Source: a virus
Length of the DNA stretch: 64,000 nucleotides
IMG/VR virus record: IMGVR_UViG_3300035703_000041
Coordinates: 31,225 to 95,224 of that record
Reading direction: 5' to 3' (one strand)
Shown one piece after another: positions 4,429 to 59,569 of this stretch. The notes under the pieces were generated by a model, which saw nothing but the letters and a program-made list of their open reading frames with translations, was not told the origin of the DNA and did not search any database. Positions within the stretch are counted from its first letter, which is position 1; every line of letters starts with the position of its first letter. Both the position numbers and the translations under genes were made by a program.

Positions 4429-4840
4429 GCCAATTGAAATATCAATTGTTCTTTCAAGTACTTTTTGGAAGGATCCACCAAAAGTTCGAACGTATATAGA
4501 TGATAATTTAATATTTGATGGTGAAATAACTGATCAAAAAACTATCAAATGGGTTGGAGAACTAACAGAAGATAAGCATAAATTAGTTGTTGAATTATAT
4601 GGAAAAGATAAGTATCAAACTATTTTAGAAAATAATAAAATAGTAAAGGATCAACTTTTAAACATAGAATCTATTGAATTTGATGAAATAGAAATTGGAA
4701 ACTTAAAGCATTCATTATCAAACTATTACCCTGTTGATGTTCAAGAACCAATAAAAAATTGTGTAAATTTAGGATGGAATGGGCGGTGGGAATTTGAGTT
4801 TACTACACCCATTTACATTTGGTTACTTGAAAACATTTAA
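4406..4840 (+). CDS. Hypothetical beta-rich protein
   Basis: A 144-residue protein overlapping the glycosyltransferase by 23 bases, so probably translationally coupled to it. Its alternating hydrophobic pattern, with VRTYIDDNLIFDGEI and a KHKLVVELYGK strand, resembles beta-sandwich carbohydrate-binding modules. Genes 14434-14748 and 41427-41789 have a similar look. This is a fold guess only. No catalytic motif is visible. Confidence 0.7.
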   Translation: MQTTLNLEPIEISIVLSSTFWKDPPKVRTYIDDNLIFDGEITDQKTIKWVGELTEDKHKLVVELYGKDKYQTILENNKIVKDQLLNIESIEFDEIEIGNLKHSLSNYYPVDVQEPIKNCVNLGWNGRWEFEFTTPIYIWLLENI

Positions 4841-4846
4841 TACAAA

Positions 4847-4852
4847 TAAATA
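4847..4852 (+). promoter_or_regulatory. T4-type late promoter core (TAAATA)
   Basis: TAAATA at 4847-4852 matches the core of the T4 late -10 element. A start about 7 bases downstream would be near 4859. It precedes the giant multi-enzyme gene at 4879. Confidence 0.55.
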
Positions 4853-4876
4853 GTCTATATACATTAATGGGCTATT
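4849..4876 (+). promoter_or_regulatory. Hairpin covering the ribosome binding site, split by the late start site
   Basis: AATAGTCTAT (4849-4858) can pair with ATGGGCTATT (4867-4876) over ten positions, eight Watson-Crick and two G-U, with an 8-base loop. The 3' arm holds the GGG that would serve as ribosome binding site for ATG 4879. The 5' arm ends at the base before the predicted late start (about 4859), so only read-through RNA could form it. Confidence 0.5.
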
Positions 4877-4878
4877 AA

Positions 4879-7800
4879 ATGATCAATAAAACAATACTAA
4901 ATGAGGGCGGCAATGTTGAAATAGATGGCATTGCTGCCCAACGTCTTGATTTAAACAAAGTTTCTCGCAGTGCTGTAGTTGCTGAAATAGATAAAGCACT
5001 ACAAATTATTAACAGCACATTTAATAAAGCATACGGAGTTCCTTTATGGAGCCCAGAATTAATAAAAAACAAAGAGTTTTTAAGTGGTAGTGCGTTTCAC
5101 TTCTTTAACGTAAAAATACCAGATGATCAATTCACTAAAGTTAAGTCTAGCGTTGGTGACATCGACACTATGGTTGATAAAGATTTAGCACAAAAAGCAA
5201 GTGACTTTTTAACTAAAGCAAAAGGCAAGCAGTTTGGACCAGCAAAGTTAGTTGGCTTTAAACCTAACCCAGGAATGGATACACTTATTAGTTTGTGGCA
5301 ATTCAACAATCCACCTGTGAATGTACAAATAGATATGGAACTTGTCGACTACGATAAAGGTAGTCCAACAGAGTGGAGCAAGTTTAGCCACAGTAGCGCA
5401 TGGGAAGATTTAAGTGTTGGTGTTAAAGGCGTATTCCACAAGTATCTATTGCGTTCGCTAACACATAAAGATGCTAAAGATCGCTACATTCAAATGAAAA
5501 CAAAGCTTAAAAAAGTTACAGCAGCGGATTTAGCGTTTGCTGTTTCAGGTGGCGTGCGTAATAAGTTTGAACCAGTAATTGATCCAAAAACTAAAAAAAC
5601 AGCAGTAGCACCAGACGGACTTCCAATATACAAGGAAGTGCCAGCAAGTGAAAGCAAGTATGTAACAGACATTAAAGGTATGTTTACACTTTTAATTGGA
5701 CGCAAACCAGTTAAAGGTGAAGAAAAATTATTGGGTAGTTTTGTTGGCGTACTATCTTTAATCAACAAATATTTTAGCAATGAAGATAAAGATAAAATCA
5801 CAAGTGCATTTATGGCATTAATATTTGGCCCTGCTGCTCAACAACTATACAAAGGTGATCCAGCAACAGATAAAAGAGAAAAAGAAATTGCTCTTAACAA
5901 AATGTTGGAAATTTTAAAAGTTAATGTTGATAAAGCAAGTTTAGCAAAAACTGTTGCAGATTATTATTCTAAGTATAAAGCTGAATCAATTACAGAAGCA
6001 GATGCACCAGACTATAAGCGTCAAGGCATCAAGCACATTTATAATCCTGGCTCAACTGTTGAAATGAAAGATGTTGACTTCTTAGCATTTATTGATGCAA
6101 TTGCTAAGAATGGTGGCACACTTGATAACATACCAATTACACTTAAAGTAGATGGTGCAGGTATACGCTTTGGACGAGATCAAAGTGATAAACCATTTTT
6201 TATGACTAGTCGTGTTACAAATCCAATTTACGCTGATAACGTTGGTATGTTTGAAAAGTACGCTAGAGATAATAATGGCAATGAAGAACAAATTGCTCGT
6301 GCTGAAAAGTATGATCAAGCATTAAGTTTAATTGTTAACAGCGACTTTATTAAAGTATTACCAAAAGACACAATTGTCCAAGCAGAAATGATGTACAATC
6401 CAATGGCTGAAAAGACAAGTGCTGGACTTAAGTTTGTAAACATCCCATATGATCCAAAGTTACTTGGTAAACAAATGACGCTTGTGCCAATTGTCGCAAG
6501 TACATATTCAACTGGCGAAGCATTACCAAACACAATTCTTCAAAAAGTAATAAGCAAGTCTACTCCTCAAATTAAAATACTTGGTACTGAGTTACAGCAT
6601 AGCGATATTGATGTAAAAAATATTGTTGAACCAATTGCTAAGATGGATGATACGCTTCGTGCTGCGTTAGCAAGTAGGAAGAAAAATGATCCAGCAAAAG
6701 CAAAAGCAAAAGAAATACTAACAACAGCACGCAAGGCAATTAGTGATGCAATCATTAATAGCCCTAACATTAAAGGTAAAGATAAGCTAGGTAAGACTAT
6801 TGAAGGTTTAGTTATTGCTATGCCAAATGGTCAACTTGCTAAAGTTACCAGTAGCGAAATGAAAGGTGCAATGGCTGCAAAAGCTATTAAGAAAGCACCA
6901 ACAACAGGCAGCAATAGAACTAAAGCTGCTATTGTTACTGCTGGTAGCTTTGTTGGCCACATAGGTCATCAAAAAGTTGTTGATACTGTTATTAACTTTG
7001 CTAAAAAAGTTGGCGGTGACCCGTACATTTACATTAGCAGTAAAGTGGGACCAGATGATCCTATTCCACCAGAAGTAAAATTAGCTACTTGGAAGAAAAT
7101 GTATCCAGAGTATGCAAAAAGTTTCCAACTAATTGTAAGCCCAGATGGTGTAACTGTTCCAAGTCCAGTTAAAAAGATTGAAAAAGAATTAGTACTACCA
7201 GCAAACAGTCCTTACAAAAAGATTGTATTAATGGTTGGTACTGATCGTTATGAAGGTTTCAAGAAGTGGATGGATACTCTTGAAAAGCGTATGAAGGATC
7301 CAGTAGCATTAGCAAAATATGGTGGAACACAAGATCAAGTTGATTACGAAACTATTGCTATACCACGCGGCGCAGCATTAGGTGGTATTGATGCAAGCTT
7401 CACACAACTACGCAATACATTAAAAGATCCTAATCTTTCACTAAAAGAAAAGTTAGCTGTTTGGTCAAAAGGATTTGGTGGAAAGCTAGACGAAGATTGG
7501 ATCAAAAAGTTAATGATGCTTTCTGCTCAAGGCATGGGAATTAAGTTAGGAGAAGCTAAATCACCATGGGATAAAATGGTTAGAGCTGTTCCCAAACTAA
7601 AAGGACATGAAGATAGAGTTAACGATATATTAAAAGCAATTAAGCAAGCAAATGCAGAATATCAAGCAATACTTGATAAAGAAAAAAATCCATTAAAAGA
7701 AGATGATGATCTAAATGTCCGTTTCCATGATACATTAAATCCAGCACTATTTAGAAATAACAAGATGAGTCCTATCGTAAGAGAAAAGCTGCTAAAAATA

Positions 7801-15905: not shown

Positions 15906-16334
15906 ATGTCACGCGGATTAATGAAAAAGTATATAGATATACTAATGGAAGCTTTAAGCTATTCCAGCTTGCAAGATGCAGGAGATGATTATAGTCCTGG
16001 CAATACTCAAATTTGGTATTGGAGAGAAGATCTTGGACGCGATATGATGATGGGATATGATTTCCTTAAAAAGCAAAACAAGCTTCCGGATCCAGCAAAT
16101 TTATCAGCTACACATGTACTAATTGGTAGCATTGCTGAAACTAATTTAGATAAAATTTATTCAATGATGCAATCAGAAAGTTGGAGCCCACAGGGTGAAG
16201 CTAGAGATTTAATTAATAAAAGCGGGGCTGGTCATACAAGTATGAGTGTTGGTGATATTATTGTAATTAATAATGATGCATCTATGGTTGATAAAGTTGG
16301 GTTCGTAAACCTAGCAACAGGGGAAGAAATATAA
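15906..16334 (+). CDS. Putative virion-cargo protein with YodL-like segment
   Basis: A 142-residue protein. From its internal Met6 it reads MKKYIDILME/A, ten residues then a cleavage-like site, the same length and pattern as the T4 internal-protein leader MKTYQEFIAE/A. The C-terminal half contains HTSMSVGDIIVIN, a signature of YodL-like or antirestriction-associated small domains on mobile elements; this link is tentative. ATG 15906 has GGAG at the right distance, and ATG 15921 has little. Its TAA overlaps the next ATG. Confidence 0.72.
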   Translation: MSRGLMKKYIDILMEALSYSSLQDAGDDYSPGNTQIWYWREDLGRDMMMGYDFLKKQNKLPDPANLSATHVLIGSIAETNLDKIYSMMQSESWSPQGEARDLINKSGAGHTSMSVGDIIVINNDASMVDKVGFVNLATGEEI

Positions 16335-17710
16335 TGTTACTTGAAAGTTTATTAAAAGAGTTTGATGAAGCAGTAAACAAACCTAAATTTACTGGTTATT
16401 GGAAAGCTCAAGATAAAGCACCTCCAGGCAAGAAAATGGTTGGTGAAGAAGAAAAAACTACAGAAGCATCAACTTTGGATACTGACATTGAATATGAACC
16501 AAGTGTAGATCAAGAGTTTGATAAGAAAGAGCTTGCAGCATTGTTAACTCAAAAATTAACAGGACTAGCACCAAAAGAAGAACGAGCAATTAGATTAAAA
16601 ATATTTTATGATTATACTTATGATCAAATTGGTGAAAAATTTGGGGTATCTGGTGATAGAGCAAGAGACATCTTTATGAAGGGAATTAGAAAATTGAGGC
16701 ACCCTTCTCGCGCGAGAGAAATTAGACCTTTCCTTGAGGATGAAAATCCAACAGATAAAATTACAATGGATATACCACTATTTTTACGTATGATGGAATA
16801 TGCTAAAGAAGATGCAAAAACAGATATGGACTTGCATCAAGTAACTGCTCGCGCAATAGAATTAATGCAACAACATGACTACCTATGTATGGATAATTAT
16901 GATACTATCATAAACAATAGCGAACCTATAGATGAAGGTTGGTTAGATAAAGTTTACTCTGCTGGTCGTAACTTTGCTGATACTGCCACTCTAGGTGGTT
17001 ACAAGTATGCACGAGCTGGTGCTGATTACGCTGCTAAGAACATTGGCAATAAATTAGGGTTCGATGTGAAACCTACCACATATCAAAAAGAACTTGATCA
17101 GGAAGTTGAAAAACTTAACAAAGATTGGGAAAAGGAACCAGGTGCAAGTCTAGCTGGCATGGGTGGAGCAATGGCTTTACCTCTAGCCGGTCAATACGGC
17201 GCTGCTGTTAAAGGCGCACAGGGGTTAGGTGGTCAAGCATTAGATGCTTACGGTAAGTTTGTTAAAACATATCCATTGGCTAAAAAAGCTTTAGGTTTAG
17301 AAAACAAAGATGAAGATATAGATGAAGAGAAAAAAGGTCTTTACTATTATGTAAACAAGCGTAAAAAGGCTGGCACAAGCAGACCAGCTAGTCATCCAAA
17401 AGCACCAAGCGAACAAGATTGGAAGAACGCTGCTAAGACTGCAAAGAAAGAAAGTGTGGGCGAAGCGGGTCAATTTTCATATGGAGCTAAAACTCCACGC
17501 AAAGGCACAGTTGCTTACAACGCAGCACAAAAGCGTAAAGAAGATGAAAAAAGACAAAAACCAATTGAGCCAAAAGATCAAATGGTCGGTGTTGCTAAGG
17601 TAACAAAAGAAGGCAAGGAAAAAGGCGCTGATGGCAAAGCTTGCTGGCCAGGTTATCGTTATGCTGGCACAGAGAACGGCAAAGACAAGTGTGTGAAAGT
17701 TAAGAAGTAA
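16334..17710 (+). CDS. Multi-domain protein with sigma-70 region 4 domain, putative virion cargo
   Basis: A 458-residue chain. Residues 78-136 read like region 4 of a primary sigma factor: APKEERAIRLKIFYDYTYDQ, IGEKFGVS and GIRKLRHPSRAREIRPFLED. This helix-turn-helix normally binds the promoter -35 box and the RNA polymerase beta flap. A short helical domain follows (about 150-190), then a region with hydrophobic helices (about 220-310), and a Cys-containing C-terminal motif GKACWPGYRYAG. Joints IDE/G (201) and VGE/A (377), and the leader MLLESLLKEFDE/A, resemble prohead-protease sites. If cut, a free sigma-4 fragment of about 190 residues would result. The start overlaps the upstream stop. 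Confidence 0.78.
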   Translation: MLLESLLKEFDEAVNKPKFTGYWKAQDKAPPGKKMVGEEEKTTEASTLDTDIEYEPSVDQEFDKKELAALLTQKLTGLAPKEERAIRLKIFYDYTYDQIGEKFGVSGDRARDIFMKGIRKLRHPSRAREIRPFLEDENPTDKITMDIPLFLRMMEYAKEDAKTDMDLHQVTARAIELMQQHDYLCMDNYDTIINNSEPIDEGWLDKVYSAGRNFADTATLGGYKYARAGADYAAKNIGNKLGFDVKPTTYQKELDQEVEKLNKDWEKEPGASLAGMGGAMALPLAGQYGAAVKGAQGLGGQALDAYGKFVKTYPLAKKALGLENKDEDIDEEKKGLYYYVNKRKKAGTSRPASHPKAPSEQDWKNAAKTAKKESVGEAGQFSYGAKTPRKGTVAYNAAQKRKEDEKRQKPIEPKDQMVGVAKVTKEGKEKGADGKACWPGYRYAGTENGKDKCVKVKK

Positions 17711-31048: not shown

Positions 31049-32050
31049 ATGGGACTTCCTCTAAGTGAAATATTCAATCGTCTTATTAAAATAAGAAATT
31101 TGAATTTTGATGGCAATAAACAAGATATCTTAAACAAGATTGATAGTTTTAATAACTACCTTAAAAACGTTAAATTTATAGAATCCAATGAATTAAAAAG
31201 TATTGAAGAAAAGCTAGTTAAAGAATTAAACAATTATAGCGAGTTAATTAAAAAAATTGAACTTAAATTAGAAAAAGCAGTTTTAGATAATGAAGCATCT
31301 TACATTAAAGCAAGCAAAAAAATGTATGTTGAAAATTTAGAAAAAATGTTGTTTGAAGAACATTTAGAGTGGAGTCAACTATGGCCGCCAACTGATTTAG
31401 AATTTGATCATTTTTTAAATCAAATCAAACAATATATTAATTGGCAAGAACCATCTTTAATTTTTGGTGCTAATAATTCTAAAATATTAAAAGCAACGAT
31501 CGGTACTGAGCCAATTTATATTTTAGAACGCTATCCAGAATATTTTAACTTACAAAAAGAAAAATTTAATGTAAGCTTTTCAAGAAAATTACGTTTTTAT
31601 GATATTAACTCAATTAATTTATTACCTAAAAATAGTATTGGGTTATTGATATGCTTTAATGAACTTAACTTTCTGCCGTGGGATATTAGTTCTTATCTAT
31701 TAACTACGTTTTCTCAAATATTATCACCAGGCGGGAAACTTATTTTCAATTATAATAACTGTAAGACACTTAGAGGTTTTGTAGAATTTGAAAACCAAAG
31801 TATGGTATTTTCAACTCCTGAAATGTATATTAAACATTTAAAAAAATATAATTTAAATTGTATACACGAATATACATCAAACAGAGAAACATTTAGTTTT
31901 ATGATTTTTGAAAAAAGCGGAGTTAAAAACTTAGTTAAGAAAAGTCCTAGTGTTGGATATATTAAACAACAGCTAACATTATCAAAACCTGTTGAACACA
32001 AAGCTAGAATTGAACATATTGAAAAATTAATAAACAATAAATTGACCTAG
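31049..32050 (+). CDS. Coiled-coil protein with methyltransferase-like domain
   Basis: A 333-residue protein. Residues 1-110 are charged helices typical of a coiled coil. From about 135 there is a Rossmann-like pattern: LIFGANNSKILKATIG, IYILERYPEYF, LLICFNELNFLPW and LSPGGKLIFNYNNC, which resembles class I AdoMet methyltransferases, although the glycine motif is degenerate (FGANNSK). It lies between the polymerase and the clamp gene. Possibly an inactive methyltransferase fold. The substrate is unknown. Confidence 0.65.
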   Translation: MGLPLSEIFNRLIKIRNLNFDGNKQDILNKIDSFNNYLKNVKFIESNELKSIEEKLVKELNNYSELIKKIELKLEKAVLDNEASYIKASKKMYVENLEKMLFEEHLEWSQLWPPTDLEFDHFLNQIKQYINWQEPSLIFGANNSKILKATIGTEPIYILERYPEYFNLQKEKFNVSFSRKLRFYDINSINLLPKNSIGLLICFNELNFLPWDISSYLLTTFSQILSPGGKLIFNYNNCKTLRGFVEFENQSMVFSTPEMYIKHLKKYNLNCIHEYTSNRETFSFMIFEKSGVKNLVKKSPSVGYIKQQLTLSKPVEHKARIEHIEKLINNKLT

Positions 32051-42752: not shown

Positions 42753-42945
42753 ACAACTTACATTATACTTTGTTGGACTTAGAGATAAGAATCATAGAGT
42801 AACAATTCAATCTGCTGCTGCGATGACGTATGATGAAGCAATTGAGAAAGTTCTTGCAGCGCCAATAATGGAAAACATAGTAGCATATACTAGAATGTCA
42901 AACGCAGATGAATTAGTATGGATAGATATAGATGAACAAAATTAA
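42745..42945 (+). CDS. Small hypothetical protein
   Basis: A 66-residue protein, overlapping both neighbours. One helix (MTYDEAIEKVLAAPIME) between strands. No family is recognised. Position between AbrB-like and queE genes suggests cotranscription only. Confidence 0.62.
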   Translation: MSEQLTLYFVGLRDKNHRVTIQSAAAMTYDEAIEKVLAAPIMENIVAYTRMSNADELVWIDIDEQN

Positions 42946-43780
42946 AATTAGTGAAATTTTTTACAGCCTACAAGGTGAAGGACAATATGTTGGTGTACCT
43001 TCCATCTTTATGCGAACGTTTGGATGTAACTTTACTTGCAGTGGATTTGGTATGCCTGCAGGAGAACTTAGCACAGAAAGGGATAATGTAGATGCTAAAT
43101 CGTTTATTGACTACCGTGACTTACCATTGGTATCGACTGGTTGTGATAGCTATGCTAGTTGGGATCCTCGCTTTAAGCATCTTTCACCACTACTCGATAT
43201 AAGCGCAATTATTGAACGTTTTAAAGACCTATTACCAGATGGTAAGTTTGGACGCGACAAACACTTAATCATTACAGGTGGTGAACCATTACTTGGATGG
43301 CAACGTAGCTATCCAGAGCTACTTAAAGAATGCATGAAGATGGGGCTTACACATCTTACATTTGAAACAAATGGCACACAACCTATATCAGATGAACTTT
43401 GGGGTTTTCTAAATAGTCAATCAGTATGGCCTGGACTTGAAGTAACATTCTCTATCTCAGCTAAACTACCATGCAGTGGTGAAAAGTGGGAAGAAGCAAT
43501 ACGCCCTGATGTTGTTAAGGGTTACGTAAACATTAAGGATCATCGTAGTTACTTTAAATTTGTTGTAAGCACACAACAAGACGTTGAAGATGCAATGCGA
43601 GCTAAAGCAGAATATGAAGCTGCTGGCATTAAAATTCCAGTATATCTAATGCCTGTTGGCGGTGTTAATAGCGTATATGAATTAAACGAAAGACAAGTAG
43701 CAGATTTTTGCAGGGATAATGGTTTACGTTTTAGCCCACGTATTCAAGTACCTTTATGGAAAAACCAGTGGGGTACCTAA
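42932..43780 (+). CDS. queE: 7-carboxy-7-deazaguanine synthase, radical SAM
   Basis: A 282-residue radical SAM enzyme. N-terminal EIFYSLQGEGQYVGVPSIFM and the TGGEPLL motif are diagnostic of QueE. The three cluster-binding Cys candidates are C32-x3-C36 and C71, with 34 residues between the second and third, much wider than the CX3CX2C or CX14CX2C of characterised enzymes. It makes CDG from the QueD product; QueC, which would then give preQ0, is not in the window. The gene is followed by the inverted repeat at 43784. Confidence 0.9.
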   Translation: MNKIKISEIFYSLQGEGQYVGVPSIFMRTFGCNFTCSGFGMPAGELSTERDNVDAKSFIDYRDLPLVSTGCDSYASWDPRFKHLSPLLDISAIIERFKDLLPDGKFGRDKHLIITGGEPLLGWQRSYPELLKECMKMGLTHLTFETNGTQPISDELWGFLNSQSVWPGLEVTFSISAKLPCSGEKWEEAIRPDVVKGYVNIKDHRSYFKFVVSTQQDVEDAMRAKAEYEAAGIKIPVYLMPVGGVNSVYELNERQVADFCRDNGLRFSPRIQVPLWKNQWGT

Positions 43781-43783
43781 AAA

Positions 43784-43838
43784 ATTACCCCAAGTATTTT
43801 AGTTAAAATGCTAAATAAACTATAATGCTTGGGGTAAT
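43784..43838 (+). promoter_or_regulatory. 15-bp hairpin over a ribosome binding site with internal late promoter
   Basis: ATTACCCCAAGTATT (43784-43798) pairs with AATGCTTGGGGTAAT (43824-43838), 14 Watson-Crick pairs and one G-U. The loop contains TAAATA at 43812-43817, whose transcript would start near 43824, exactly at the 3' arm. The GGGG binding site is in that arm. Read-through RNA would hide it and late RNA would expose it, as in T4 I-TevI. Confidence 0.72.
43812..43817 (+). promoter_or_regulatory. T4-type late promoter core (TAAATA)
   Basis: TAAATA at 43812-43817, in the loop of the hairpin just described, 25 bases before the homing endonuclease ATG. Confidence 0.6.
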
Positions 43839-43841
43839 AGA

Positions 43842-44597
43842 ATGACAAATCCAAAAAATAAAAAAACACATGAAGAATTTGAAAAAGAGCTAAAAAATAA
43901 ACACCCAACAATAATGCTATTAGAAAATTATATAAACACCGACACTAAACTTAGATATAAATGTGATCACGGAGAGAACTCTGCTCGTCCTTGGCAACTG
44001 CTTACAATGAAGCATTGTTGTAGGAAAGGATATTATTCTTCAGGTGTTATGTGGGATAAACGCACGTTGACTTTAGAGCAAGTTAAAGAAAAAGCGTTAA
44101 AAACTCGAAAAAACATTGATGTAAGTGAATGTTATATTGAAACAGAAAAATATAAAAAAATACTGAATATTAAATGTACCGTGCATAACGTTTATTATTC
44201 AAGTTATGTAAAAGGTAAAATTGGACTTTGTCCAAAATGTAATGAAGAAAGAAATTTAGCACAATTAGCAGTAGCTATGCCGTTAGCTTGGGCAAGTCAA
44301 AAAAATGGTAGTTTTGTCTCTAAAAAAGAAACAAAATGGTTAGATTCTCTTGGAATAGAAAACAGACAAGTCTGGTTAGAAGATGTAAAATATAAAGTAG
44401 ATGGATACGACCCAAATACTAATACTGTATATCTATATCATGGAAAATTTTGGCATGGTTGTCCTGAAACATTTGATCCTGAAATGATACATCCAGTTGT
44501 AAAAATTCCAATGAAAGATTTGTATCAAAAAACTTTATTTTATGAGAGAAAGATTAAAAGTGCAGGATACAACTTAATAATAAAATGGGAAGAATAA
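43842..44597 (+). CDS. Free-standing homing endonuclease-like protein
   Basis: A 251-residue protein. The N terminus has spaced Cys/His residues (KCDHGENSARPW, MKHCCRKG) and a zinc-like CPKC, a DNA-reading domain in many phage homing enzymes. The C terminus VDGYDPNTNTVYLYHGKFWH followed by GCPETFDP and KIKSAGYNLIIKWEE is the Vsr/EDxHD-type catalytic pattern of phage nucleases. It lies alone between queE and a different gene, with T4 I-TevI-like control, as expected for a mobile intruder. Confidence 0.8.
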   Translation: MTNPKNKKTHEEFEKELKNKHPTIMLLENYINTDTKLRYKCDHGENSARPWQLLTMKHCCRKGYYSSGVMWDKRTLTLEQVKEKALKTRKNIDVSECYIETEKYKKILNIKCTVHNVYYSSYVKGKIGLCPKCNEERNLAQLAVAMPLAWASQKNGSFVSKKETKWLDSLGIENRQVWLEDVKYKVDGYDPNTNTVYLYHGKFWHGCPETFDPEMIHPVVKIPMKDLYQKTLFYERKIKSAGYNLIIKWEE

Positions 44598-44598
44598 T

Positions 44599-45015
44599 AT
44601 GTCATTGTGGAATAAATTTTTAGAAGCACTTGCGCCGCCTGAGGCTCAATTAAAGTTTAAGCAGGAAAGTAAATCAAAGAAACCACGCAAACCTAAAGTA
44701 ACTAAAACTCCAAAAGAGATTGCTAACGAAAAAGGTGAACCATATATTTCTGTAGTTTCAGTTGATTTAGACAAAGCAAATGTTGGCAACGGTTCTTTTG
44801 AACTTGATTGGAACGACACATTTATTAAGCAACTACGTGCCGCTGGTTATCCTGGTAAAACAGATGAAGATGTAGTTGACATGTGGTTTAGAAGTGTATG
44901 TCGTAATGTATTAGCAGAAGCTTATGAACAAGAAGTTGCTCAAAAATCTCCACCAGATAATGTACGATACATTAATCGTAAAACTGGGGACGATGGTAAA
45001 ACAGAAGTTTCATGA
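44599..45015 (+). CDS. Hypothetical protein upstream of the exonuclease
   Basis: A 138-residue protein: short N-terminal helix MSLWNKFLEAL, a basic linker with SKSKKPRKPKVTKTPKEIAN, and a conserved-looking C-terminal domain NVGNGSFELDWNDTFIKQLR, AAGYPGKTDEDVVDMWFRSV. The linker may bind nucleic acid. Overlaps the next gene in ATGA. Confidence 0.68.
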   Translation: MSLWNKFLEALAPPEAQLKFKQESKSKKPRKPKVTKTPKEIANEKGEPYISVVSVDLDKANVGNGSFELDWNDTFIKQLRAAGYPGKTDEDVVDMWFRSVCRNVLAEAYEQEVAQKSPPDNVRYINRKTGDDGKTEVS

Positions 45016-49377: not shown

Positions 49378-50184
49378 ATGATGTATAACGCAGGCTTCGC
49401 TGTAGCCATAAAAAATAACGGCAAAGTTCTCAGAGAATTTAACAAAGACACAGTATTCCTACCATTTGGTAGCGAGTATACAATACTTGTTAAGAACCTC
49501 AACACAAAGCGAGCAATAGTAAACATTACTATTGATGGTCAAAACATGACTAAAGATGGATTAGTTGTTAATGCTGGTAGCGAAGTTGAACTTGAACGTA
49601 AGATTACTGACAACCTATCAAAAGGCAATAAGTTTAAGTTTATTGAACGCACTTCTCAAATTGAACAACATCGTGGCGTAAAGCTTGAAGATGGTGTTAT
49701 ACGTATTGAATATCAGTACGAAAAAATCTACCATTATCAACCACTCTACTATGTCGCACCAAATGTTTGGTATGGCGGTGGTTCAACTTGGAATGACATA
49801 GTTGTTGGCGGTACAACAACCTCAACTAATTCAGTTCTACGTAGTGCAGCTATCAATAGCATACAATGTTCTGCAACATCAAGCATGAGCGAACATCCTG
49901 GTGTAGCTTGTAGCGACTTTGTGCAACAAGGGTTTAACGATGCAGGCATTACTGTGCCTGGTAGTGAAAGCAATCAGAAGTTTAACACTGTTTCAAGTTT
50001 CCCGTTGGAATACGAGAAGCATGTAATGATCCTTAAGTTGGTTGGTGAAACGCCAGATAACGAACCTATCCGTAAACCTGTTACTGTTAAGGCAAAACCA
50101 AAGTGTGTAACGTGCGGCAAGCAAAACAAAGCACACGCTAAGTTTTGTAGCCATTGCGGCACTGCACTTACAGTAATCGCATAA
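49378..50184 (+). CDS. Zinc-ribbon protein, putative beta-rich virion or host-takeover factor
   Basis: A 268-residue protein. N-terminal half is a beta domain (GFAVAIKNNGKVLREFNKDT, FLPFGSEYTILVKNLNTKRA, NITIDGQNMTKDGLVVNAGS) like those in large-phage proteins. Residues from about 240 end in a double-Cys zinc ribbon KCVTCGKQNKAHAKFCSHCG. Between them is a Tyr/Gly/Ser-rich linker. No function is known. Late promoter upstream. ATG 49378 or 49381. Confidence 0.75.
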   Translation: MMYNAGFAVAIKNNGKVLREFNKDTVFLPFGSEYTILVKNLNTKRAIVNITIDGQNMTKDGLVVNAGSEVELERKITDNLSKGNKFKFIERTSQIEQHRGVKLEDGVIRIEYQYEKIYHYQPLYYVAPNVWYGGGSTWNDIVVGGTTTSTNSVLRSAAINSIQCSATSSMSEHPGVACSDFVQQGFNDAGITVPGSESNQKFNTVSSFPLEYEKHVMILKLVGETPDNEPIRKPVTVKAKPKCVTCGKQNKAHAKFCSHCGTALTVIA

Positions 50185-50195
50185 TAAATTGCTCT

Positions 50196-50201
50196 TAAAT
50201 A
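50196..50201 (+). promoter_or_regulatory. T4-type late promoter core (TAAATA)
   Basis: TAAATA at 50196-50201 with predicted start near 50208, 37 bases before ATG 50245. Confidence 0.5.
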
Positions 50202-50231
50202 GTGTTGGTGCTTTAATAGCATCAACACTAT
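50199..50231 (+). promoter_or_regulatory. Strong 14-bp hairpin coincident with a late start
   Basis: ATAGTGTTGGTGCT (50199-50212) pairs with AGCATCAACACTAT (50218-50231) with one G-U and loop TTAAT. The late start (about 50208) falls after the outer nine pairs. The arm ends 5 bases before the AAGGAA binding site. No T tract follows, so it is not a standard terminator. Confidence 0.55.
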
Positions 50232-50244
50232 CAATAAGGAAATT

Positions 50245-50421
50245 ATGATGAGTGATAAAAAGATGGTCAAGCTTAATGTAGAAGGCATTAATGCTGAGAT
50301 TGAAGAAGATCTAATACAAGATGCAATGGCAATTCATGGTATTGACATTGTTAAAGAAATGACCGAAGTATTACAAAAAGAAACCGCTATTGAAAAGGAA
50401 AGAACAAATGAGCTAGGTTGA
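50245..50421 (+). CDS. Small acidic protein, 58 aa
   Basis: ATG 50245 with AAGGAA upstream; TGA 50419-50421. Product MMSDKKMVKLNVEGINAEIE continues as an acidic helix with DLIQDAMAIHGIDIVKEMTE. No family is recognised. The following reading frame overlaps its end. Confidence 0.7.
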   Translation: MMSDKKMVKLNVEGINAEIEEDLIQDAMAIHGIDIVKEMTEVLQKETAIEKERTNELG

Positions 50422-52219: not shown

Positions 52220-53341
52220 ATGGCTAAGACTGATAAGAACGCTAATGCTATTAGCGAAGTACGTACCGTTACGTCTGCAGAAGCGCGTAACCTTATTAAG
52301 ATTGCCGCAGTGCGGCGTAAGCGTCCCATTTTCCTTTGGGGACCTCCGGGTATTGGTAAGTCCGAACTTGTTGCCGATATCGGTACTGAGATTGATGCGC
52401 TTGTAATTGACTTGCGTATGGCACTACTTGATCCAACTGACCTGCGTGGTATTGGTTTCTATAACCCCAACACCAACACAATGGATTGGGCGCCGCCTGT
52501 TGACCTTCCTACTGCGGAAATGGCAGCTAGGCACAAGTATGTCATTTTGTTCCTTGACGAAATGAACTCTGCTCCGCCTGCTGTACAGGCTGCTGCATAC
52601 CAGCTTATTCTTAACCGGCGTATTGGTCAGTATCGTCTGCCCGACAACGTGGTAATTATTGCTGCTGGTAACCGCGAGACTGACAAGGGTGTTACTTACC
52701 GTATGCCTGCTCCGCTTGCTAACCGTTTCGTTCACTTCGAGATGCGCGTTGACTTTGAAGCTTGGCACACTTGGGCAGTTACGCATAACGTTCACTCGGA
52801 CGTAATTGGTTATCTGTCCCAGCACAAGGGCGACCTGTTCGACTTTACTCCAACTAGTTCTTCTCGTTCGTTTGCTACTCCGCGTAGCTGGACGTTCGTT
52901 AGCGACATCCTGCAGGAGCAGATGTCAGACAAGGAAGTGACCGACGTTATTGCTGGTACCGTAGGCGAGGGCATTGCCCACAAGTTTATTGGTCACCGCA
53001 AGTTCTCTGGTCAGCTTCCAAAGGCTGAGGACGTAGTTGAAGGTAAGGTTAAGGACCTTAAGGTGCAGGAAATTTCCGCACATTACACCCTTATGATCAA
53101 TCTCTGCTACGAGCTTAAGGAGCGTTTCGAGAACAACTCCAAGAAGGCTGACGACAAGTGGCACTCTAACGTAGACAACATGCTGCGTTACATTATGGAC
53201 AACCTCAGTGCTGAGCTGACCATTATGGGTATGCGTACTGCGGTAATGACCTACCGTCTGCCAATTGCTGCTCAGAAGCTTAAGAACTGGGATGAGTTCA
53301 ACAAGAAGTACGGCAAGTACATTCTCGCCGCTGCTGAGTAA
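52220..53341 (+). CDS. MoxR-type AAA+ ATPase
   Basis: A 373-residue single-AAA+ protein. Walker A GPPGIGKS (41-48), Walker B ILFLDEMNSAPP (about 110-120), sensor VIIAAGNRETD. The MoxR/CobS-type ATPases act with VWA-domain partners as chaperones; the VWA-like gene at 56908 is the likely partner. Cyanophages carry a similar gene annotated as cobS. Its codons are more GC-rich than those of the neighbours (frequent CGT, GAC, AAG), suggesting high expression or different ancestry. Early-type promoter upstream, strong hairpin after the stop. Confidence 0.88.
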   Translation: MAKTDKNANAISEVRTVTSAEARNLIKIAAVRRKRPIFLWGPPGIGKSELVADIGTEIDALVIDLRMALLDPTDLRGIGFYNPNTNTMDWAPPVDLPTAEMAARHKYVILFLDEMNSAPPAVQAAAYQLILNRRIGQYRLPDNVVIIAAGNRETDKGVTYRMPAPLANRFVHFEMRVDFEAWHTWAVTHNVHSDVIGYLSQHKGDLFDFTPTSSSRSFATPRSWTFVSDILQEQMSDKEVTDVIAGTVGEGIAHKFIGHRKFSGQLPKAEDVVEGKVKDLKVQEISAHYTLMINLCYELKERFENNSKKADDKWHSNVDNMLRYIMDNLSAELTIMGMRTAVMTYRLPIAAQKLKNWDEFNKKYGKYILAAAE

Positions 53342-56907: not shown

Positions 56908-58176
56908 ATGCACGTTTATATGGCTAAGAAGAAGAAAGATATTGCAAAGTGCCTGCCTTATGACGCGAAGCGTGACGCACAGGCACGTGACCGTCTTATC
57001 CAGGCGCGCGTTAAGATGCTTATGACCCAAGACTTTTGGGGTAAGATTGCTACACGTATGAAGCTTATCAATGCTGACGAATGGTGTGCTACACTAGCCA
57101 CTGATGGTCGTAATTTTTATTACAACTCCGCATTTGTTCTATCGCTTAAGCACATTGACAAAGTAATCTTTGGTTTTGCTCACGAAGTGCTGCATTGCGT
57201 ATATGATCACATTGCGCGTACTGGCAGCCGTGATCGCCAGCTTTCCAACATTGCACAAGACTATGTAATTAACGCTGATCTTGTTCGTCACCGTATTGGT
57301 CAGAAGATTGATGAAATTGACATCATCTATGACGACAAGTATTATGGGTGGGCATGGGAAGCGGTCTATGATGAACTAATGAAGAATGTTAAGTTCATCA
57401 ACGTTGAAGACCTTGCTGACATGCTACTTGACGATCACCTTGAGGAAGGTGAAGATGATGGTGATGGCAAAGAAGGTGACAAGGATAGCGTAAGCCGCAA
57501 GCGTCCTGTTATCAGCCGTGAGGAGCGTGAGAAGCTTAGGGACGAGTTCCGTGAAGCTATCCTGCAAGCTGCACAGGGCGCAAAGCCTGGTTCGCTGCCG
57601 TCAGGTGTTGAACGCATGGTAAAGAGCATGACTGATCCCAAGCTGGATTGGCGTTCGCTTATTACTATGAAGATCCCTTCGCTTGCTAAGAACGACTATA
57701 GCTACCAGCGCCCCAACAAGAAGTATCAGTACTCCGGTATTGTTATGCCTGGTCTACAGCGTGAAGAAGCAATTGACGTTTGTATTGCTATTGACACATC
57801 CGGTTCTATCAGCCAGCAGCAGCTCGAAGAAGTGTTGAGCGAGATTGTTGGTCTTATGGACATGTATGCGGAGTTTACGCTACGCATTTGGCAGTTTGAT
57901 ACTGGCATTTACGGTTACGAAACTTTCACTAAGGACACTGCTGGTGACCTTATGCGTTATGAAATTAAGGGTGGCGGTGGTACTAGCTTTGCTGCTAACT
58001 GGGACTTCATGAAGAATGAAGGTATCGAACCCAAGCTGTTCATTATGTTTACGGACGGTGAAAGCTTTGATGGTTGGGGTGATCCAGACTATCAGGACGA
58101 TATGCTTTGGATTATCAACAATCCGTATAACAAGAGCATTGAACCTCCCTACGGTGCGTGGGCATACTACGAGTAA
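56908..58176 (+). CDS. Metallopeptidase-like plus VWA-domain protein (DUF2201 type)
   Basis: A 422-residue protein. N-terminal part has HEVLHCVYDH (HExxH at 92-96) in the arrangement of zinc metallopeptidase-like domains, followed by an acidic linker, then a von Willebrand A domain with the MIDAS motif DTSGS (about 296-300) and FTDGESF. Such proteins pair with MoxR-type ATPases, and the ATPase gene lies 3.6 kb upstream. The two share a GC-rich, high-expression codon style that differs from the small genes between them. Cyanophages have similar cobT-like genes. Whether the peptidase cuts a substrate is unknown. Confidence 0.87.
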   Translation: MHVYMAKKKKDIAKCLPYDAKRDAQARDRLIQARVKMLMTQDFWGKIATRMKLINADEWCATLATDGRNFYYNSAFVLSLKHIDKVIFGFAHEVLHCVYDHIARTGSRDRQLSNIAQDYVINADLVRHRIGQKIDEIDIIYDDKYYGWAWEAVYDELMKNVKFINVEDLADMLLDDHLEEGEDDGDGKEGDKDSVSRKRPVISREEREKLRDEFREAILQAAQGAKPGSLPSGVERMVKSMTDPKLDWRSLITMKIPSLAKNDYSYQRPNKKYQYSGIVMPGLQREEAIDVCIAIDTSGSISQQQLEEVLSEIVGLMDMYAEFTLRIWQFDTGIYGYETFTKDTAGDLMRYEIKGGGGTSFAANWDFMKNEGIEPKLFIMFTDGESFDGWGDPDYQDDMLWIINNPYNKSIEPPYGAWAYYE

Positions 58177-59532: not shown

Positions 59533-59569
59533 CTGTTCAACATAATAAATATGATATCATGTTGAACAG
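59533..59569 (+). promoter_or_regulatory. 11-bp perfect hairpin burying a start codon, with internal late promoter
   Basis: CTGTTCAACAT (59533-59543) and ATGTTGAACAG (59559-59569) pair perfectly. The 3' arm begins with the start codon ATG 59559. The loop holds TAAATA at 59546-59551, with start predicted near 59558. Late transcripts would lack the 5' arm and expose a nearly leaderless ATG. Confidence 0.7.
59546..59551 (+). promoter_or_regulatory. T4-type late promoter core (TAAATA)
   Basis: TAAATA at 59546-59551 in the loop of the hairpin around ATG 59559; the ATG is seven bases downstream. Confidence 0.6.

Follow-up and report, generated by a model that had tools for sequence, protein, structure and literature searches.

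A hairpin covering the ribosome-binding site, in combination with a late promoter, has been described as the means of regulation for I-TevI, segB, and Aeh1 mobE (PMC2988022, PMC3014915). In the case of T4 I-TevI, encoded in the td intron, the ribosome site of early and middle transcripts is masked by the hairpin, and the late promoter is placed such that late transcripts are without the 5' arm (PMC2988022, PMC3014915). Aeromonas phage Aeh1 mobE and T4 segB are free-standing endonuclease genes with a late promoter located within the ribosome-site hairpin (PMC2988022). The leader of T4 e (lysozyme) is, in the fold model used here, likewise predicted to hide its ribosome site, GGAG, which would be freed on the late RNA, but e is a lysis gene and not a mobile element.

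Here we analyzed a window of 64,000 nucleotides (positions 31,225 to 95,224 of IMG/VR virus record IMGVR_UViG_3300035703_000041), in which an initial annotation had proposed that a homing endonuclease gene is controlled by an I-TevI-like hairpin with the late promoter inside it. Unlike I-TevI, which is intron encoded and of the GIY-YIG type, the gene in the window is free-standing, follows queE, and specifies a protein of another family. Its context, between queE and a 138-aa gene, also differs from those of mobE (ribonucleotide reductase gene) and segB (among tRNAs), and, unlike for mobE and segB, the arrangement could be traced over about 40 leaders.

Results

The window derives from a probable relative of giant T4-superfamily phages

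The virus record containing the window comprises 95,224 bases in total and is probably a fragment. The nearest relatives of its family-B DNA polymerase were those of the giant phages Phosso, Atu_ph07, GAP32, and CBB (44 to 50% identity, with 44% for CBB), and the record encodes an RNA ligase (PHROG 562) as well as a clamp loader of T4 type (PHROG 168). Because of this polymerase kinship and these two genes, we infer from the sequence that the phage is a member of the wider T4 superfamily. A DNA search of cultured phages with the region gave no matches, a phage protein search gave just two, both remote, and no relative was found in the GTDB genomes searched.

A hairpin precedes the candidate endonuclease gene

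The features of the locus are collected in Table 1. The 15-bp stem is formed by positions 43784 to 43798 pairing with 43824 to 43838 and is extended, beyond a 1x1 mismatch (43799/43823), by five base pairs (43800 to 43804 with 43818 to 43822) that close a loop of 13 nt. The minimum free energy (MFE) was -27.4 kcal/mol (z = -5.5), none of 200 dinucleotide shuffles folding as well, and among the 23 inverted repeats with a spacing of up to 60 nt listed for the window, the hairpin was third. The GGGG ribosome site, 7 nt before the ATG at 43842, was fully paired with CCCC of the 5' arm, and TAAATA lay wholly within the unpaired loop, both as the initial annotation had described. A search of Rfam returned matches far below the gathering scores, mostly miRNA-like fits to the bare hairpin. 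Two loop mini-ORFs (ATG 43808, and ATG 43825 ending at the endonuclease ATG) were considered as coupled leader peptides and set aside, having by eye no evident counterpart in the family.

Table 1. Coordinates of the queE-endonuclease locus in the window
Feature	Position	Strand	Basis or remark
queE-like radical SAM gene, 282 aa, directly 5' of endonuclease gene	42932..43780	+	PHROG 2076, E 7.5e-52; stop codon 43778-43780
Hairpin 5' arm, with CCCC 43788-43791 as anti-Shine-Dalgarno	43784..43804	+	Fold
Hairpin loop with late-promoter-like TAAATA	43805..43817	+	Fold; TAAATA in 41/42 family leaders
TAAATA, putative -10 element of T4-type late promoter	43812..43817	+	24 nt before ATG
Hairpin 3' arm with Shine-Dalgarno GGGG 43831-43834	43818..43838	+	Fold
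Probable free-standing homing endonuclease gene, 251 aa	43842..44597	+	PHROG 559 "HNH endonuclease," E 4.5e-8; family alignment; present/absent cassette
138-aa gene, PHROG 13349	44599..45015	+	Directly 3' of queE in many cassette-less loci

The loop contains a late-promoter-like motif

T4 late promoters carry TATAAATA at positions -13 to -6. The promoter-like motif in the window is GCTAAATA rather than TATAAATA, TAAATA being preceded by GC, versus TA in the full motif. By the T4 rule, RNA would start at about 43823 (+/-2). This is within 1 to 2 nt of the start at about 43824 proposed initially, although the position is a prediction rather than a mapped end. TAAATA occurred 47 times in the window versus about 103 expected, and this depletion fits a functional motif. 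In the 95-kb record, the motif was found 19 to 33 nt upstream of ten genes, namely, the endonuclease gene and nine others. One of the nine specifies 107 aa and is situated two genes ahead of a virion structural gene; another immediately precedes a sigma-like gene.

The product of that sigma-like gene (16334 to 17710) is 458 aa long, contains a sigma-70 region 4 domain (Pfam E 6e-7), and is by PHROG not a gp55 homologue; TAAATA lies 19 nt before the neighboring gene on its upstream side. gp55 was looked for in the window's own 95-kb record and was not found. G001, a relative of 244 kb that has the cassette, encodes a late sigma of the gp55 family (E 1.7e-72 and 1.8e-22), and such sigmas were also present in G002 and G003, relatives found through queE. 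Phage CBB carries a gp55-like sigma together with ATAAATA before structural genes (PMC5259590).

Other hairpins or inverted repeats in the window also overlap TAAATA. The TAAATA located 26 nt upstream of a 2135-aa gene overlaps the 5' arm of a 9- to 10-bp hairpin that buries the GGGC preceding the start of this gene (4830 to 4881), possibly a second, segB-like case; the same hairpin is found in L199 and L200, which at 91% identity are too close to judge conservation. In a 33-nt inverted repeat (76%) at 50180 to 50250, TAAATA falls within the 5' arm, and the 3' end carries AAGGA and then ATGATG; a 15-bp inverted repeat at 59533 to 59569, at the start of the 59559 ORF, has TAAATA (59546 to 59551) spanning the 5' arm into the loop. 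The product of 56908 to 58176 was assigned as an HNH endonuclease by PHROG and as a DUF2201 putative metallopeptidase with a VWA-like domain by Pfam (E 1.6e-36); with the AAA ATPase at 52220 to 53341, it perhaps forms a MoxR/VWA-like pair.

The gene is present or absent at a fixed site

The gene order queE, 138-aa gene, exonuclease was kept without the 251-aa gene in most of 78 loci, while in L019, L020, and the family leaders a cassette lay between queE and the 138-aa gene, making it present or absent at a fixed site. queE was directly upstream of the endonuclease gene in all 40 family leaders (42 in total) with a long enough locus, and the gap from the end of queE to the endonuclease ATG was 36 to 77 nt throughout the family.

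The family alignment (A1) contained invariant Cys/His and E/D/H residues. Pfam searches with 19 family members gave no nuclease above threshold (Vsr in two, the best at 0.065), hhalign of the family against E. coli Vsr gave a weak likeness (12%), and a PDB sequence search with the endonuclease gave no match. The PHROG 559 match, a weak homology, together with the invariant residues and the present/absent pattern suggests that the 251-aa protein is an endonuclease.

The leader design recurs with the endonuclease gene

IMG/VR searches yielded 42 distinct leaders of the endonuclease family, the window's own included. TAAATA was located 14 to 32 nt (14 to 34 nt in one count) before the start in 41 of these, compared with 4.1 expected from dinucleotide shuffles, and in 36 of the 37 leaders kept at 80% identity (3.5 expected). 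Folding was stronger than that of the leaders' own shuffles (z < -2 for 38/42; median z, -4.9). The median folding energy was -20.1 kcal/mol, versus -6.7 kcal/mol for 50 distinct queE loci lacking the endonuclease gene, of which a single one contained TAAATA. Hairpin, hidden ribosome site, and TAAATA in the loop recur solely where the endonuclease gene is present.

These comparisons bear on whether the hairpin instead terminates queE transcription or protects the end of the queE mRNA, or else terminates an antisense RNA, with TAAATA incidental. The stem is strong and directly follows queE, and on the minus strand it runs into TTTTTT (complement of 43780 to 43785). However, the plus strand has no T run after the stem, a terminator scan made no call, the hairpin is absent from queE loci lacking the endonuclease gene, and the position of the stem is fixed relative to the endonuclease ribosome site rather than to queE; we regard this explanation as very improbable.

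Relatives' stems differ in sequence, with bases changing in compensating pairs. Pairing anchored on the ribosome site was found in 83% of stem positions, versus 43 to 47% with the partner slid, and changes on both sides of the stem numbered 106, versus 24 to 36, the pairing diagonal being taken from each sequence's own MFE fold, which favors the unslid count. A palindrome acting mainly as DNA, either as an operator through which the endonuclease represses its own late promoter or as a cruciform, would have a precedent in I-TevI, which recognizes an operator that overlaps the I-TevI late promoter (PMC2988022), and the promoter in the window does lie at the palindrome center. Variation of the stem sequence with pairing kept by compensating changes suits RNA pairing instead, and similarity between the leader and the empty queE junction was not above that of shuffles, a comparison of low power. 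We regard a mainly DNA-level role as very improbable.

In 38 of the 42 leaders, TAAATA was beyond the 5' arm, between the start codon and the bases that pair with the ribosome site (in L156 by a single paired base), and a T4-like start 6 nt after TAAATA falls beyond the anti-Shine-Dalgarno arm in nearly all. Full leaders folded with -17 to -37 kcal/mol and RNAs from 6 nt after TAAATA with -0.4 to -8.6 kcal/mol. The unpaired probability of the Shine-Dalgarno sequence was <0.2 in 35 of 41 full leaders, and the late-RNA median was 0.47. L102 has its promoter inside the 5' arm, in a segB-like geometry, and in L145 and L156 the start codon is buried instead of the ribosome site. The predicted start varied from 9 to 27 nt before the ATG across the family; because of this spread, the fit of the timing "to the base" that had been claimed is not borne out, and what holds is that the start lies past the 5' arm. 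For L127 (same as L001), the nearest relative, the prediction would place it within GGGG, so that either the T4 rule misplaces the start by a few bases or this is a poor allele.

The leader resembles T4 leaders under known late control

As controls, T4 leaders were put through the same pipeline. The e leader folded with -18.4 kcal/mol, the unpaired probability of GGAG being 0.00 on the long RNA and 0.62 on RNA from the late promoter; the values for segB were -25.5 kcal/mol, 0.00, and 0.25. In the same test, the window gene gave -28.1 kcal/mol, 0.00, and 0.28, so that the ribosome site of the late RNA is just partly free in the model. The window therefore resembles the T4 cases that the reviews list as so regulated. 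The comparison with I-TevI and e drawn in the initial annotation is borne out, by the reviews for I-TevI (PMC2988022, PMC3014915) and by the same signature in the e leader.

We propose that, in this T4-superfamily phage, queE and the gene after it are separated by a cassette carrying a probable free-standing endonuclease. Read-through RNA from upstream would carry both arms, and the hairpin would bury the GGGG ribosome site; therefore, little or no endonuclease would be made. Late in infection, a gp55-type sigma would start RNA from the TAAATA in the loop, and this RNA, beginning after the 5' arm, could not form the hairpin and would be translated. The sequence features make it very probable that the hairpin and its loop promoter constitute a late-only switch for the endonuclease gene. 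The I-TevI-like arrangement originally put forward is supported by its recurrence in relatives, its association with the cassette, and the gp55-family sigma of a cassette-bearing relative. The RNA start, early silence, late translation, and homing activity are inferred.

Early read-through RNA may leak: the queE stop codon lies just 7 nt upstream of CCCC (3 nt from the 5' arm), and a ribosome terminating there would occlude this arm and might open the hairpin. In an alternative view, translational coupling would be the whole mechanism, with ribosomes finishing queE melting the outer stem, timing following queE, and the internal promoter unneeded. The position of the stop codon and the short queE-to-ATG gaps throughout the family are what coupling would need, but it fails to predict TAAATA between the arms in nearly every leader, or its spacing. 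We consider coupling an improbable substitute for the late-only switch; it could coexist with the late promoter as a leak.

Variant alleles and cassette ends

The 57-nt hairpin is perfectly inverted between L155 (980 to 1036) and L153 (343 to 399), with TAAATA reversed, in contigs that are 97.7% identical over 3.7 kb. The L155 endonuclease frame has a premature stop, and the inverted hairpin is either a natural off-allele or an assembly artefact. L183 (2480 to 2670) and L184 carry a decayed cassette, in which the hairpin and most of the gene are deleted; after queE comes CATAAATA, joined to the 54 codons that end the endonuclease gene.

Like queE (WGT), most members of the family have WGT, WGD, or WGK as their last residues (window positions 44575 to 44605), and the endonuclease end recreates TGGGG beside the downstream start codon. 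In alleles with the cassette, the end of queE itself is often WST or WNT. The recreated TGGGG may give the downstream gene its ribosome site back. A tentative reading, to which we give slightly less than even credence, is that the cassette is doubly fitted, with its own late-only switch and with last codons (often WGT then TAATG) that copy the queE end, the TGGGG serving the next gene. If this is true, the endonuclease family would have evolved as a self-contained insert, restoring host gene expression on one side and timing itself on the other.

Discussion

Judged from its sequence, the leader in the window is an unusually well documented example of an already known switch, that of T4 I-TevI, e, and segB and of Aeh1 mobE. 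In the reviews, the T4 switch is described for a few genes of T4 and Aeromonas phages (PMC2988022, PMC3014915). Here an entire endonuclease family appears to have kept it, in uncultivated phages related to the giant members of the T4 superfamily. The occurrence of the hairpin design in about 40 related phage sequences suggests that a T4-style late-only switch has been kept by selection, and, as the stem changes on both sides across the family, late-only expression looks selected rather than one phage's accident. The natural variants, broken and inverted alleles included, provide a set for testing why early expression of the endonuclease would be costly.
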